Below, in pieces: positions 1,711 to 7,555 of a stretch of DNA of 7,555 bases. The DNA comes from Fusobacteriota bacterium. Lineage in GTDB: Bacteria; Fusobacteriota; Fusobacteriia; Fusobacteriales; Fusobacteriaceae. The position numbers and the translations under genes were made by a program. The DNA is taken from positions 1 through 7,555 of the forward strand of contig QNYN01000187.1 in the NCBI GenBank assembly GCA_003973585.1, read 5' to 3'. Below the pieces are notes generated by a model. The model saw only the letters and a program-made list of their open reading frames with translations. It was not told the DNA's origin and did not search any database. How positions within the stretch are numbered: the first letter of the stretch is position 1; every line of letters begins with the position of its first letter.

Positions 1711-2436
1711 ATGGAAAAACGAAACGAGTTTTTATTGGAAAACAAGATACATTCTAGCTATTATGAATTTTTTACTCTAGAAATAGTAGAAAAAATAGAA
1801 GTTATTTTTAGTAAAATTGAAAATTATACTCCTAGTAAAGAAGATGTTTTTAAAGTATTTAGAAAAGATTTAAATGATGTCAAAGTGGTTCTTTTGGGAA
1901 TGGATCCATATCCACAAAAAGGTGTTGCCACTGGAAGATCTTTTGAAGTGAAAAAAGATAATTGGGCTGATAAAGGGGTAAATACATCACTAAAAAATAT
2001 TCTGAAATTAATATATAAGACATATATGGGAGAAATTCCTACAATAAAATTATTAAGGGAAAAAATAGAGTCAGAAGAATTTAATATATTATCACCGAAA
2101 GATCTTTTTAATAGCTGGGAATCACAAGGTGTTTTATTACTTAATGTAGGGTTAACTGTTGAAATAGGAAAATCAGGTAGTCATATTAAATACTGGAAGC
2201 CTATAACAGAAAAATTACTTAGATATTTAGAAATGAAAAATAAAAATTTAATATTTTTATTGTGGGGACAAAAAGCGATTAATTATAAAAAAAATTTAAA
2301 AAATTCAGTAATTATAGAACACAATCATCCTGCAATATGTGGTAATTTAAAAAATCCAAATGATTTTTTAAATGGAGAAAGTTTTGAAAAGACAAAAAAT
2401 ATTATTGAGTGGCGAGGAATCAAAGGAGGAAAGTAG
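1711..2436 (+). CDS. ung: Divergent family-1-like uracil-DNA glycosylase
   Basis: The product is 241 residues, a little longer than E. coli Ung. It would remove uracil from DNA to start base excision repair. The five family-1 blocks can be followed: VVLLGMDPYPQKGVATG (59-75; water-activating Asp D65 and uracil-pocket Tyr Y67), SFEV (77-80), VLLLNVGLTV (141-150; uracil-reading N145), FLLWGQKA (182-189) and HNHPAICGN (204-212; catalytic His H206). Two blocks differ from the canonical forms. GQDPYH is GMDPYP, and the DNA-intercalation loop HPSPLS is HPAICG, so the usual intercalating Leu position is Cys210. The order, spacing and key catalytic residues still fit an active enzyme. AAGGAG at 1701-1706 precedes the ATG. 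It is probably co-transcribed with glsA, and its TAG overlaps the next gene's start. Confidence 0.85.
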   Translation: MEKRNEFLLENKIHSSYYEFFTLEIVEKIEVIFSKIENYTPSKEDVFKVFRKDLNDVKVVLLGMDPYPQKGVATGRSFEVKKDNWADKGVNTSLKNILKLIYKTYMGEIPTIKLLREKIESEEFNILSPKDLFNSWESQGVLLLNVGLTVEIGKSGSHIKYWKPITEKLLRYLEMKNKNLIFLLWGQKAINYKKNLKNSVIIEHNHPAICGNLKNPNDFLNGESFEKTKNIIEWRGIKGGK

Positions 2437-3290
2437 TGAAATATTTTTTATTTATAGATCATCCAAAAGGAAATTTAGATACTATTTCAGAAGAGACAGA
2501 AGAAAGGATTAGAAGTTATTTTGATAGAATAGATACTATAAAAACTAAAGTTAATATAAAAGGGAAAGAATATCAAGGGGTTATTGATTATGGTGTTTTT
2601 GCAAATTTAACAAATTTTGATTGTTTTCATTGTGTAGAGCATTGTTGTGGGGATGCTCCAGAAATATTTAATAAAAAAATTAGAAAATTTATATTAGAGA
2701 ATAGTGAAAAATATAATACATTAACAAAAACTTTTGATATTTTAGAAGAATTAGGACATTCTTCAGAAGAGATTGAAGATATGGTATTAAATGAAAAAGT
2801 GTTAGTTGCAGAGGAATATTTAGAAAATGAGATAGATTTATGTCCTTGTGCATATACTCCTAAAAATGGTCAAACTTTATGTTCCCTTCATTCAATTTGT
2901 TTAGATAAAGGTTTAGGAGCTAAAGAAATCATTGAAAATAAACCATTTATATGTAGTATATGGCCCCTTGAGATGATTTTAGATGAAGATAAAAATATTT
3001 TATATATAACTTTACCTGATGATTTTACAAATAACTTTACTTTAGAAAATTATTACACTAAGTCATGTATAAATATAGATTTTGCAATGAGTCCTGTCTT
3101 TAGAAGGGAAAACCCAGATGGCTTTTTAGAAGAAGATTTTATCCCTTTTATTTTTAGTTATGGGGAAACACTAAAGAATATATTGGGAAATGAGGTATAT
3201 TCTTTAATAAAAGAAAAATTAATAGAAGAAGAGCTAATAACAGAAGATAATTCCCATCAAAAAGAACAACTTTTTAAAATTTTGGTATAA
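2436..3290 (+). CDS. Cysteine-rich protein, YkgJ/DUF3109-like, function unknown
   Basis: The product is 284 residues from the GTG at 2436, whose first base is the last base of the ung TAG. This start is preferred over an in-frame GTG at 2409 because AGGAGG (2424-2429) sits six bases upstream of it. Ten cysteines occur, mostly clustered: C63 and C66 in FDCFHC, C70-C71 in EHCCGDAPEIF, C136 and C138 in LCPCAY, C149 and C155 in TLCSLHSIC, C173 in KPFICSIWPLEM, and C211. The pattern CC, then CPCAYT, then C.LH, then KP..C..WPL resembles YkgJ-type cysteine clusters and DUF3109 proteins, which are thought to bind Zn or Fe-S. No signal peptide or membrane segment is evident. Tight overlap with ung suggests translational coupling, but no functional link is known to me. 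No clear terminator follows. Confidence 0.8.
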   Translation: MKYFLFIDHPKGNLDTISEETEERIRSYFDRIDTIKTKVNIKGKEYQGVIDYGVFANLTNFDCFHCVEHCCGDAPEIFNKKIRKFILENSEKYNTLTKTFDILEELGHSSEEIEDMVLNEKVLVAEEYLENEIDLCPCAYTPKNGQTLCSLHSICLDKGLGAKEIIENKPFICSIWPLEMILDEDKNILYITLPDDFTNNFTLENYYTKSCINIDFAMSPVFRRENPDGFLEEDFIPFIFSYGETLKNILGNEVYSLIKEKLIEEELITEDNSHQKEQLFKILV

Positions 3291-3392: not shown

Positions 3393-4601
3393 ATGGACAA
3401 AGTTAAATTAGAAGACATTGTAAAAGCACAAAAAATATTAAAGCCTGTAATTAAAGATACACCTTTATTAGAATCAAGACAATTGTGTAAGATGACAGGG
3501 GGAAATATTTATTTAAAAGCAGAGAATTTACAGTTAACGGGTTCTTTTAAAATAAGAGGTGCTTATAACAAAATAAGTAACTTAAGTGAAGAAGAAAAAG
3601 AAGCAGGGGTTATTGCATCTTCAGCTGGGAACCATGCTCAAGGAGTAGCACTTAGTGCAACAAAGTTAGGGATAAAATCAACTATAGTAATGCCTGAAAT
3701 AGCACCTTTATCAAAAGTAGCAGCAACTAAAAATTTTGGTGCAGAAGTAGTATTACATGGTTCTGTATATGATGATGCTTATGGTAAGGCATGTGAAATT
3801 CAAAAGGAAACAGGAGCAACTTTCTTACACCCTTTTGACGATAAATATGTTATTGCAGGGCAAGGAACAATAGGATTAGAGATATTAGATCAATTAGAAA
3901 ATGTAGATGTAGTTTTAGTGCCTATTGGAGGGGGAGGAATTTTAGCAGGAATTTCTACTGCTATAAAGGCTATTAATCCTAAAGTAAAAGTAATAGGTGT
4001 AGAGGCAGCATATGCTCCTTCTATGAAAAGTGCAATAGAAAGAGGACAAGTATATACAATAGATACAAGGGCAACTATAGCAGATGGAATTGCAGTTAGA
4101 AGAGCAGGAGATTTAACTTTTGAGATTATCAAAGAAAATGTAGATGAATTTGTAACAGTAACAGAAGAAGAAATAGCAAGGGCAGTATTACTTTTATTAG
4201 AAAGGGATAAAGTTGTTGCAGAGGGAGCTGGTGCAGTAACTGCTGCTGCTGTTATGAATAATAAGTTTGATTTTAAAGGGAAAAATGTAGTTGCAGTAGT
4301 ATCAGGTGGCAACCTAGATGTAAACCTAATGGAAAGAATAGTAAATAAAGCATTAATAAGTGAAAATAGAAGATATACATTAAAGGTTAAATTAGTAGAT
4401 AAAGCAGGAGAAATGACAAAATTATTAGGAGTTATAGCAGAATTAAAAGCAAATATTTTAACATTAAACCAAACAATGTATAAAAATGCACTTGCTATAG
4501 GAGAACAAGAGGTAAAATTAACTTTAGAAACTTTTGATAAGGTTCATATAGATGAAATTGTAAGTAAATTAATAGCAGCAGGATATGAGATATTAGACTA
4601 A
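3393..4601 (+). CDS. ilvA: Threonine ammonia-lyase with C-terminal ACT domain
   Basis: A PLP enzyme that converts L-threonine to 2-oxobutanoate and ammonia, feeding isoleucine synthesis or threonine catabolism. It is 402 residues, the length of the short TdcB-like form with one ACT domain, rather than the roughly 510-residue E. coli IlvA. Visible motifs are the PLP lysine K53 in TGSFKIRGA, the substrate loop SSAGNHAQG (77-84 region), the phosphate-binding glycines in PIGGGGILAG (177-186) and VSGGN near 304. An ACT domain covers about 328-402, starting at RYTLKVKLVDKAGEM. The ATG at 3393 has AGGGGG at 3381-3386, six bases upstream; an upstream in-frame GTG at 3360 coincides with the predicted transcription start and is rejected. 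The gene stands alone, with its own promoter and terminator. tdcB would be an equally fair symbol. Confidence 0.95.
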   Translation: MDKVKLEDIVKAQKILKPVIKDTPLLESRQLCKMTGGNIYLKAENLQLTGSFKIRGAYNKISNLSEEEKEAGVIASSAGNHAQGVALSATKLGIKSTIVMPEIAPLSKVAATKNFGAEVVLHGSVYDDAYGKACEIQKETGATFLHPFDDKYVIAGQGTIGLEILDQLENVDVVLVPIGGGGILAGISTAIKAINPKVKVIGVEAAYAPSMKSAIERGQVYTIDTRATIADGIAVRRAGDLTFEIIKENVDEFVTVTEEEIARAVLLLLERDKVVAEGAGAVTAAAVMNNKFDFKGKNVVAVVSGGNLDVNLMERIVNKALISENRRYTLKVKLVDKAGEMTKLLGVIAELKANILTLNQTMYKNALAIGEQEVKLTLETFDKVHIDEIVSKLIAAGYEILD

Positions 4602-4619
4602 AAATAGAAGAATATTGAA

Positions 4620-4659
4620 AAAAGTACCCATTATCTTAAGAGAGATAGTGGGTACTTTT
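4620..4659. terminator. Shared terminator between convergent ilvA and coaBC
   Basis: A 16-bp stem pairs 4620-4635 with 4644-4659, with one T-G wobble (4631/4648) and an 8-base loop TTAAGAGA. The arms begin AAAAGTACCCA and end TGGGTACTTTT. A-runs and T-runs flank both sides, so it can work in both directions. It lies 18 bases after the ilvA stop and 9 bases after the coaBC stop. Confidence 0.92.
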
Positions 4660-4668
4660 AATATGGTT

Positions 4669-5841
4669 TTATTTAAGTTGTTCTAGGATTTTGAAAGCTA
4701 AATCTTCCTTTTTTGTTTGAGGTACTTCTAATATAGAATCATTAGTAATAAAAAATACATGGTTAGTATTTTTACCAAATGCTTCAGTTGAGTTTCCAAC
4801 AATAAGATCTAAATTTTTCTTTTTTAATTTTGTAGTTGCATTTTCTATTAAATCATCTGATTCAGCAGCAAATCCAATAAGTTTTTGGTTTTCTTTTTTT
4901 CTTTTTCCCATTTCTAGTAAAATATCTGGATTTCTTGTTAATTCAAATACTAAATCTCCATCTTTTTTCTTAATTTTAGAAGGAGAGTATTCTTTTATTC
5001 TATAATCGGCAACAGCAGCACATGCAATTCCAATATCAGAGTTATCAAAATATTTAAAAACAGCATCATACATTTCCATAGCACTTCTAACATTTATAAC
5101 TTCTATATTAGAAGGAGGAGTAATATTAGTAGGGCCACTTATGAGGGTCACTATAGCTCCTAGTTGTTTTGCAGCTTCAGCTAAGGCATATCCCATTTTA
5201 CCTGTAGATCTATTACTCAAATATCTAATAGGATCAATAGCCTCTTCTGTAGGGCCTGCAGTAATAACAATTTTTTTCCCTTTTAAAAATTGCTCTCTTT
5301 CTTTAGCTAAAAAATGAGTATTTATAATATCAATTATGTCACTTTCTTTTTTCAATCTTCCCTTTGCATTCCAGTCACATGCAAGATTTCCAGTATCTGC
5401 ATCGATAAAATTGTAACCATAAGTTTCTAGTTTTTTTATATTATCCTTTAAAATAGGATTGTTATACATATTTACATTCATAGCTAGAGCAAAAAAAGTT
5501 GGAGCTGTAGTTGCAGAGATTATAGTAGAGAGCATATCATCAGCAATACCATTTGCAACTTTTCCAATAATATTATAAGTAGCAGGAGCAATCAAGACTA
5601 AATCAGCCCAGTCTGCTAAACTAATATGTTCTACATCAATATTTGATTTTTCAGCCCACATATCAACAGAAACACGATTTTTAGAAAGGGTCTCTAAAGT
5701 AAGCGGAGTAATAATCTCAGTGGCGTTTTTAGTCATAACAACTTTCACATTATATCCATTTTTCTTTAGTAAAGAACAAATATTTGCTGATTTATATGCT
5801 GCAATTCCACCAGTTATTCCTAAAAGTATATTTTTTTTCAT
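4669..5841 (-). CDS. coaBC: Bifunctional phosphopantothenoylcysteine decarboxylase / phosphopantothenate-cysteine ligase
   Basis: It makes 4'-phosphopantetheine from 4'-phosphopantothenate, cysteine and a nucleotide (CTP in the common form), in two steps of coenzyme A synthesis. It is 390 residues, near the usual 400. The N-terminal CoaC flavoprotein domain (1-180) shows GITGGIAAYK (8-17), catalytic H72 in VEHISLADWADLVLIAPAT, the MNVNM motif (121-125; N122) and active-site C155 in GNLACDW. The C-terminal CoaB domain (188-390) begins GKKIVITAGPTEE and has N210 in YLSNRSTGKMG, AAVADY (275-280) and SPSKIKKK with the conserved lysine near 289. MNVNMY replaces the commoner MNVNMW, a mild change. 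The ATG at 5839-5841 is preceded by AGGAG (5850-5854, - strand) at eight bases. It is convergent with ilvA and divergent from the metal ATPase. Confidence 0.97.
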   Translation of the reverse strand: MKKNILLGITGGIAAYKSANICSLLKKNGYNVKVVMTKNATEIITPLTLETLSKNRVSVDMWAEKSNIDVEHISLADWADLVLIAPATYNIIGKVANGIADDMLSTIISATTAPTFFALAMNVNMYNNPILKDNIKKLETYGYNFIDADTGNLACDWNAKGRLKKESDIIDIINTHFLAKEREQFLKGKKIVITAGPTEEAIDPIRYLSNRSTGKMGYALAEAAKQLGAIVTLISGPTNITPPSNIEVINVRSAMEMYDAVFKYFDNSDIGIACAAVADYRIKEYSPSKIKKKDGDLVFELTRNPDILLEMGKRKKENQKLIGFAAESDDLIENATTKLKKKNLDLIVGNSTEAFGKNTNHVFFITNDSILEVPQTKKEDLAFKILEQLK

Positions 5842-5890
5842 AAAAGTCTCTCCTCTTTAAAGATATTTAAATAATTTTTTTATTCTCTTT

Positions 5891-5899
5891 AGTATATCA
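5891..5899 (-). promoter_or_regulatory. Extended -10 promoter element of coaBC
   Basis: On the - strand the sequence reads TGATATACT: a TGn extension followed by TATACT, about 50 bases upstream of the start codon. No good -35 hexamer is present 17 bases further upstream (only T-rich sequence), which fits an extended -10 promoter. A perfect AT-only palindrome, TATAAAATTTTATA (5900-5913), sits just upstream. Confidence 0.55.
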
Positions 5900-5936
5900 T
5901 ATAAAATTTTATAAAAAAAGTTAATGAAAAGTAATA

Positions 5937-5954
5937 TATGAATTGACATTCATA
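5937..5954. promoter_or_regulatory. Upstream operator, ArsR/SmtB-like
   Basis: TATGAA-TTGACA-TTCATA: two 6-base arms with a 6-base centre that is exactly the -35 hexamer. With one more base on each outer side the repeat reads ATATGAAT-TGAC-ATTCATAT (5936-5955). A bound dimer would cover the -35. The arm sequence fits the TGAA...TTCA core of ArsR/SmtB-family metal sensor sites. Confidence 0.65.
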
Positions 5955-5971
5955 TGAAATTATAATATTAT
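5943..5971 (+). promoter_or_regulatory. Promoter of the metal ATPase
   Basis: A perfect TTGACA -35 (5943-5948) and TATTAT -10 (5966-5971) are separated by 17 bases. Transcription would start near 5978, some 36 bases before the ATG. This is the strongest promoter match in the window. Both elements are embedded in inverted repeats, described separately. Confidence 0.85.
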
Positions 5972-5988
5972 ATGAATAGTTATTCATA
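5971..5988. promoter_or_regulatory. Downstream operator, ArsR/SmtB-like
   Basis: TATGAATA-GT-TATTCATA is a perfect 8-2-8 inverted repeat, equivalently TATGAA-N6-TTCATA. It starts on the last base of the -10 and covers the predicted start point. It has the same arms and spacing as the site 34 bases upstream. Repressor binding here would block transcription of the ATPase. Confidence 0.72.
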
Positions 5989-6013
5989 CATATATATAAA
6001 GGAGTTTAAGAAT

Positions 6014-7555
6014 ATGAAAAAAGAGGTGTTATACAAGATAAAAAACCTCCATTGTGGAGGATGTGCAGGTAAAATTGAAGCAGCAATAGGAGATTTACCC
6101 TATGTAGAGAATGTTAATCTTAATTTTATGAAAAAAACTTTATTCATAGAATTAAAGGAAGTAAAAGAAGATTTATTAGAAGTGTTAAATAAGTTAGCAG
6201 ATAAGATAGAAAGGGGAACTATTATAGAAGAGATAGAATTAGCTCCTCAAAAAACAGAATTTACCTATGAAATTGAAAATTTACATTGTGGAGGGTGTGC
6301 TAGTAAGATAGAGGCAGCAATTAATGACTTAGAGTATATTAAGTCCGCTAATTTAAATTTTATGAAAAAAACTTTAAAAATAGAAATCAACAAAGAAAAA
6401 GTAGGAAATATAGATTTTTTAACAGAAATAAGGATTATAGCAGATAGGTTAGAATCTGGAACTGTAATATTAGAAATTGAAGAAGAGCAACATGAAGACT
6501 ATGTAGAAGTAGAAGAGGGAAAAAATAATATAGATACAACAAAAAAATCGTATAAAGAAGAGATTTTAATTGGAATAGCTCTTTTATTATTTTTTCTAGG
6601 GACTTTTGGTATTGAGAATACAATATTAAAATTAGTGGTATTAATTGTAGCTTATATAATTTCTGGTGGAAATGTAGTTTTAAATTCAATTAAAAATATA
6701 GCTCGTGGTAACTTTTTTGATGAAAATTTCCTTATGACTATTGCAACAATTGGTGCTTTTTTTGTAGGAGAACATTCAGAAGCTGTGGCAGTAATGCTAT
6801 TCTATCAAATTGGAGAATATTTCCAAGGTAGAGCTGTTAATAATTCAAGAAAATCAATAGAAGGATTAATGAATATTAGACCTGACTTTGCAAATGTTAA
6901 AGTAGGAGATGTAATTAAAAAAGTAAAACCTGAAAGTGTAAAGATAAATGATATAATTGTAGTAAAACCTGGAGAGAAACTTCCATTAGATGGTGTTATA
7001 ATAAGTGGAAATGCTACTTTAGATACATCTGCATTAACTGGAGAATCATTACCAGTAGATGTGAAGTCTGGAGACAAAGTTTTAAGTGGAAGTATAAATA
7101 AAAATGGTGTAATTGAGATAAAAGTTGAAAAAGATTTTTATCATTCTACAGTAAATAAAATTTTAGAATTAGTAGAAAATGCAAGTAATAAAAAAGCTGA
7201 TACAGAAAAATTTATCACTAAATTTGCAAAGTATTATACACCAATTGTAGTTTTTGGTGCAGCTATTATAGCAATAGTGCCACCGATATTTGTAGGAGAT
7301 TTTAATACATGGCTTTATAGAGCATTGATATTTTTAGTAATTTCATGTCCATGTGCTTTAGTAATTTCAATTCCTTTAGGATTCTTTAGTGGAATAGGTG
7401 CCGCCTCTAAAAAAGGAATATTAGTAAAAGGTGGAAACTACTTAGAGGCTTTAAATAAAGTCTCAGCAATAGTTTTTGATAATCTATACTTTACTCCCAA
7501 TCCTAAAGGAATTGAAATTACTAAAGCACATGGACATGAAATTACTAAAAATATC
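6014..7555 (+). CDS. Zn/Cd-type P1B heavy-metal-translocating ATPase, two HMA domains (3' end missing, terminus aberrant)
   Basis: A membrane pump that would export Zn2+/Cd2+ (possibly Co2+ or Pb2+). 514 residues are seen, with no stop. AAGGAG (5999-6004) precedes the ATG by nine bases. In order: HMA domain 1 (about 4-70) with H13-C14-G-G-C17; HMA domain 2 (about 82-150) with H91-C92-G-G-C95; an acidic, His-containing linker (154-170); paired membrane helices around 184-220 and 238-270; the actuator domain with TGES (342-345); and helices around 405-427 and 437-458 carrying the metal-site motif C445-P-C447 in ISCPCALVISIPLGFF. CPCALVIS with a following IPLGFF is typical of the zinc/cadmium subgroup rather than copper pumps. 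The phosphorylated aspartate should be D489 in IVFD, but the expected KTGTLT does not follow. The frame reads NLYFTPNPKG instead and then enters an inverted copy of upstream sequence. Residues after 489 are probably not authentic. Confidence 0.92.
   Translation, partial: MKKEVLYKIKNLHCGGCAGKIEAAIGDLPYVENVNLNFMKKTLFIELKEVKEDLLEVLNKLADKIERGTIIEEIELAPQKTEFTYEIENLHCGGCASKIEAAINDLEYIKSANLNFMKKTLKIEINKEKVGNIDFLTEIRIIADRLESGTVILEIEEEQHEDYVEVEEGKNNIDTTKKSYKEEILIGIALLLFFLGTFGIENTILKLVVLIVAYIISGGNVVLNSIKNIARGNFFDENFLMTIATIGAFFVGEHSEAVAVMLFYQIGEYFQGRAVNNSRKSIEGLMNIRPDFANVKVGDVIKKVKPESVKINDIIVVKPGEKLPLDGVIISGNATLDTSALTGESLPVDVKSGDKVLSGSINKNGVIEIKVEKDFYHSTVNKILELVENASNKKADTEKFITKFAKYYTPIVVFGAAIIAIVPPIFVGDFNTWLYRALIFLVISCPCALVISIPLGFFSGIGAASKKGILVKGGNYLEALNKVSAIVFDNLYFTPNPKGIEITKAHGHEITKNI
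6122..6142 (+). repeat. Direct repeat in HMA domain 1 (copy 1 of 2)
   Basis: This 21-base stretch, encoding the core of LNFMKKTL in the first metal-binding domain, recurs identically at 6356-6376, exactly 234 bases (78 codons) downstream. It reflects tandem duplication of the HMA domain within the gene. Confidence 0.9.
6356..6376 (+). repeat. Direct repeat in HMA domain 2 (copy 2 of 2)
   Basis: Identical partner of 6122-6142. Flanking HCGGC and KIEAAI blocks also repeat with the same 78-codon period but with synonymous changes, so the duplication is not brand new. Confidence 0.9.
7327..7383 (+). repeat. Left arm of a 57-bp perfect inverted repeat
   Basis: This is authentic ATPase coding sequence, covering the metal-site helix IFLVISCPCALVISIPLG. 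Its exact reverse complement forms 7499-7555. The two arms are separated by 115 bases (7384-7498). Confidence 0.98.
7499..7555 (-). repeat. Right arm of a 57-bp perfect inverted repeat, ending at the window edge
   Basis: Base for base the reverse complement of 7327-7383 (paired positions sum to 14882). Identity stops at 7498/7384 and runs to the last base of the window, so its true extent to the right is unknown. Read in the ATPase frame it gives NPKGIEITKAHG and then HEITKNI, which is unlike any P-type ATPase at this position. It is most likely a fold-back copy. Confidence 0.97.

Follow-up and report, generated by a model that had tools for sequence, protein, structure and literature searches.

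Known types of inverted chimera

Several kinds of chimeric molecule have been described in which a sequence runs on into an inverted copy of a nearby part of the same locus, and they are summarised here from excerpts of the respective reports. Among chimeras of multiple displacement amplification (MDA), 85% were inverted (406/475), and in 337 of those 406 the parts lay within 10 kb (PMC1855051). Sharing of bases at the junction is usual but not obligatory: 76.8% of MDA junctions share at least 2 bp, and 93.5% of the inverted chimeras with parts within 10 kb share junction bases (PMC1855051). The distance between parts peaks at 250–300 nt, and a chimera can consist of two or more parts (PMC4595205). 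A second type arises during library preparation, when self-priming of a hairpin gives reads with reverse-complement ends, more so in AT-rich reads; these palindromes were seen in short reads of historic or ancient DNA, and the hairpin begins at a short natural inverted repeat (PMC3946424). The third is the foldback read of long-read sequencing, described mainly for ONT data. There, more than 11 bp of non-mapping sequence separates the parts in a minority of the foldback and chimeric reads, and the intervening sequence of foldbacks is enriched in simple repeats (PMC12870357). Inverted-repeat chimeric reads after sonication have been described as well (PMC10908179). None of the papers that the literature search brought up dealt specifically with fold-backs at metagenome contig ends.

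The window (the whole stretch of DNA that was analysed, 7,555 nucleotides of contig QNYN01000187.1 from a Fusobacteriota bacterium) ends in an arrangement of this general kind, inside a gene for a heavy-metal ATPase. Its last part is made up as follows.

6014–7482, plus strand: ATPase gene, genuine part (two Pfam HMA domains and E1-E2_ATPase; NCBIfam heavy-metal ATPase models; identity to protein P0001)
7327–7383, plus strand: left arm, encoding the CPC metal-site helix and aligned with relatives
7384–7482, plus strand: spacer, normal coding part, by alignment to the related loci L001 and L002
7483–7498, no strand assigned: junction segment of 16 nt, neither gene nor arm, for which no source was found
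7499–7555, minus strand: right arm, the exact reverse complement of 7327–7383, ending at the last base of the window

The last 57–73 bases are very probably an inverted chimera that arose in amplification or library preparation and was kept at a contig end, and not genome sequence. Like the MDA inverted chimeras (PMC1855051, PMC4595205), the structure is inverted, lies within one locus, contains an exact copy and joins parts separated by about 100 nt (7482 to 7383). Unlike most of them, it has 16 nt between gene and arm and, since 93.5% of the comparable chimeras share bases at this point, the junction would be of a rarer kind if it were made by MDA (PMC1855051). The likeness to the interrupted palindromes of library preparation is that, in AT-rich DNA, the 3' part reads as the reverse complement of a stretch further upstream on its own strand; the difference is that the short natural inverted repeat with which such a hairpin begins was not found in the window (PMC3946424). 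With ONT foldbacks the window shares the turn onto the other strand within one locus, and some of these also carry extra non-mapping sequence, but the 16 nt here, unlike the foldback inserts, are not a simple repeat (PMC12870357). None of the three (MDA, library preparation or ONT) is singled out by these comparisons.

The ATPase gene and its relatives

Judged by its sequence, the host gene is a ZntA/CadA-type heavy-metal (P1B) P-type ATPase of a Psychrilyobacter-like member of the Fusobacteriaceae, an assignment that applies to the gene and not to the window's reading of the gene end. The frame from 6014 encodes two HMA domains, an E1-E2 ATPase domain and the CPC motif (Pfam, NCBIfam). The NCBIfam heavy-metal ATPase models match the truncated window protein, with none of the curated heavy-metal cut-offs being reached. 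The closest protein found, P0001, is a full-length protein of 787 aa with 98% identity over 95% of the query, and comes from a JGI contig of 10,912 bp; the next named relatives after it are from Psychrilyobacter. At the DNA level, the nearest of the 61 genomes searched show about 71–82% identity over parts of 3393–7326. The plasmid search gave 81 records, every one of them in the 60–80% identity band, and no relative of P0001 was found among the viral contigs.

The window tracks its relatives through GATAA (7478–7482), where the catalytic Asp codon is followed by the first bases of another codon, and diverges from them thereafter, so that the genuine part of the gene ends with the Asp codon at 7478–7480 followed by a shared AA. 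At the point of divergence P0001 reads DKTGTITKG. The DKTGT motif lies exactly 44 residues after CPC in 120/120 homologues (the best 120 of 7988 scored), and it has the same 44-residue spacing in all nine distinct related DNA loci that cover the site. Six of these are of the Fusobacteriaceae type (L001, L002 and L024–L027), the others being L006, which is distant, and L004 and L005; the last two, from Faecalitalea, read DKTGTMT at the site. Locus L003 ends before the site and is outside this count. The motif and the domains downstream of it are missing from the window's version of the gene, while P0001 has them.

In the window, threonine ammonia-lyase, coaBC and the ATPase gene are adjacent (within 3393–7326), a gene order that differs from that of the related genome G057, as the matches there are about 210–225 kb apart. 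The window also encodes a divergent uracil-DNA glycosylase-like protein (1711–2433), which scores above the Pfam cut-offs and below the curated NCBIfam ones, and a 284-aa protein with several Cys motifs (2436–3287) that has no Pfam or NCBIfam match at E 0.001.

Geometry of the inverted repeat

The preliminary description reported a perfect inverted repeat of 57 bp with a spacer of 115 nt, and recounting gave the same values, with 57 of 57 positions complementary and a spacer of 115 nt. The bases adjoining the inner ends of the two arms mismatch, so there is no extension on that side, and since the right arm is cut by the window edge, 57 nt is a minimum for the arm size. In 100 first-order Markov sequences with the window's length and base transitions, the longest perfect inverted repeat measured 13–20 nt, and this maximum of 20 nt excludes a chance origin of the 57-nt repeat. 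The remaining inverted pairs listed for the window, of 29–32 nt, are merely 71–86% complementary. Complete identity over the 57 positions means that there has been little time for the arms to diverge. The repeat gives a strong predicted hairpin (z −15.1), which is simply a consequence of the inverted arm, and Rfam returned no matches at gathering scores. The open reading frame continues through the right arm to the window end.

It had also been proposed that the left arm is the original and the right arm the copy. This agrees with the relatives examined, which have normal ATPase sequence at the place of the right arm and none of which contains that arm. On this alignment the left arm is the original sequence, and the right arm is probably a chimeric copy. 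A continuation beyond the window had been predicted for the case of a fold-back, namely aatgctctataaagcc; it is indeed the reverse complement of 7311–7326, and the place for which it was predicted lies beyond the window.

The spacer and the junction segment

Between the arms, the spacer had been thought to be in coding orientation up to the catalytic Asp. This stands for 7384–7482, but not for the 16 nt at 7483–7498, which match neither the relatives of the gene nor the sequence that continues the left arm. The segment is 16 nt long, or 18 nt with the shared AA counted in. Compared without gaps to the rest of the window, it reaches 12/16 at best, a value that 431 of 500 shuffled 16-mers reached or exceeded. 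No source for it emerged from ungapped comparison with the window and six related loci, nor from an exact-word search of the window and L001–L003. A run of 9 nt that recurs at corresponding positions in L001 and L002 was judged to be due to chance. In eight related genomes the 18-nt version is matched with two mismatches at best; three such places lie in two of these genomes, and since the reversed control pattern also gave three, these too are matches by chance.

Gene and arm thus do not adjoin, as 16 nt intervene, and the base sharing that is usual at MDA junctions is not seen between them. A clean one-step fold-back is therefore an incomplete description of the junction. The simplest description would be a two-step join, consisting of the gene to 7482, the 16-nt segment, and an inverted copy that starts at 7383 and runs back to 7327.

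Search for the junction in other sequences

An exact search with 32 nt across the junction found nothing in genome_contigs, which has one genome per species, and nothing in viral_contigs. The protein search with residues 471–514, which include the chimeric tail, considered 13 candidates and returned P0001 alone (E 0.46, 100% identity over 43% of the query), leaving the tail unmatched, although clustering of the protein collection at 90% identity and the restriction of the DNA scans to exact matches could hide a second sighting. Coverage of 43% is what would be expected, given that the first 19 residues of the 44-residue query are normal. Perfect inverted repeats of at least 12 nt within 400 bp of the site were absent from all seven related loci scanned, a set that comprised L001, L002, L024–L027 and L006 and left out L004 and L005.

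A separate observation concerns L003, a related contig from a metagenome (DDQV01000066.1), which ends at 9332, inside the region that matches the left arm. No inverted copy of at least 18 nt is present at this contig end, and its position is probably a coincidence, or else reflects a conserved stretch that breaks assembly.

Inverted repeats at contig ends

The frequency of such structures was estimated in 719 IMG/VR loci (6.16 Mb) drawn with six arbitrary patterns, which are viral contigs and not contigs of this sample, and whose locus ends are not all true contig ends. A first run of the scan covered 479 loci with 958 locus ends, and the last run all 719. Only one locus of the 719 (L326) has a perfect inverted repeat of at least 40 nt within 1.5 kb. 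Its repeat (L326:13819–13935) has 54-nt perfect arms with a 9-nt loop and lies 3 nt from the end, which is a true contig end, as the locus spans 3080–17017 of a 17,017-base contig. It looks like the contig-end fold-back of the window, the alternative being an AT-rich natural hairpin. Running counter to a restriction to ends, perfect inverted repeats occur inside L555 (30 nt, 3676 bases from a locus end) and L229 (29 nt, 820 bases), and several short palindromes are interior in the loci of this set. As in L326, a contig terminus is involved in L448, where a perfect 38-nt palindrome (L448:1–38) starts at base 1, a contig start. The single event of at least 40 nt, in L326, makes for weak statistics, yet it falls where an artefact predicts it.

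Origin of the inverted arm

An inverted chimera of the kind favoured here would have formed from a 3' end that halted just past the catalytic Asp codon (about 7482) and was freed in amplification or library preparation. This end would first have gained or copied the 16-nt segment, and would then have annealed at 7383 to the other strand of the locus and served as a primer, copying 7383 back to 7327. The assembler would have taken up the chimeric reads, and the contig would have stopped there; the window end is presumably the contig end. In keeping with such an event, the second segment repeats, in inverted form, a stretch lying close by in the locus (57/57, 115 nt), and the junction is missing from independent assemblies and from relatives (genome_contigs, viral_contigs, the relatives examined and the protein search). 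The preliminary description had favoured a fold-back chimera or an artefact of the contig end. Without being proven, this gains support from the full-length protein with 98% identity, the relatives that have no arm, the junction without a match and the arm that reaches the last base. What has to be modified, given the 16-nt junction segment, is the clean one-step form of the fold-back; the artefact itself stands. The 57-base mirror copy is thus probably not a biological feature.

Among the alternatives, a real and very recent inverted duplication fares best, although we consider it unlikely. Template switching inside the cell (through a hairpin, or MMBIR-like, with a short insert) would in that case have placed a reversed copy of the CPC-helix region behind the catalytic Asp codon and disrupted the ATPase in the strain. 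Its strongest argument is the 16-nt insert at the junction, as multi-step replication repair leaves short inserts to which this segment is similar, and the uninterrupted reading frame, which crosses the arm and reaches the window end, also fits. These points are set against the existence of P0001, full-length and 98% identical, the absence of the exact junction from the collections searched, and the coincidence of the arm with the end of the sequence. Furthermore, instability in bacteria is to be expected of a long inverted repeat whose spacer is short. That a two-step template switch with a 16-nt intermediate took place in a wild Psychrilyobacter-like cell, so that an inverted duplication replaces the catalytic loop of the metal-efflux ATPase and has been retained by a fraction of the population, appears distinctly unlikely.

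The CPC regions are conserved among P-type ATPases, and the right arm might on that account belong to a second, paralogous ATPase copy adjoining the gene in the opposite orientation. This we regard as very improbable. The perfect identity (57/57) stops abruptly, and beyond the arm the reverse reading in the left-arm frame is IPLGLGVKYRLSK, where the closest relatives have IPLGFFSGIG; both observations contradict a paralogue. In addition, close relatives, when aligned, differ at many of the arm bases.

The invertible (phase-variable) segment flipped by a recombinase, which had been listed earlier as an option and is suggested by the 115-nt segment flanked by two inverted arms, is scarcely credible and is contradicted by the data, as the spacer to 7482 is normal gene in coding orientation, the right arm fills the place of an essential region (the conserved phosphorylation region of the relatives), 7/7 scanned relatives are without the arms, and, as already remarked in the preliminary description, no recombinase is in view, none being among the NCBIfam matches of seven window proteins, one of which (2436–3287) is unmatched.

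Significance for annotation

With an inverted chimera as the preferred reading, the significance of the repeat is limited to quality control. Annotation of the ATPase should leave out the last 73 bases, and these should not be entered as an inverted repeat element either. Chimeras can usefully be flagged by perfect inverted arms extending to the end of a contig, and L326 is a similar case among the IMG/VR contigs.
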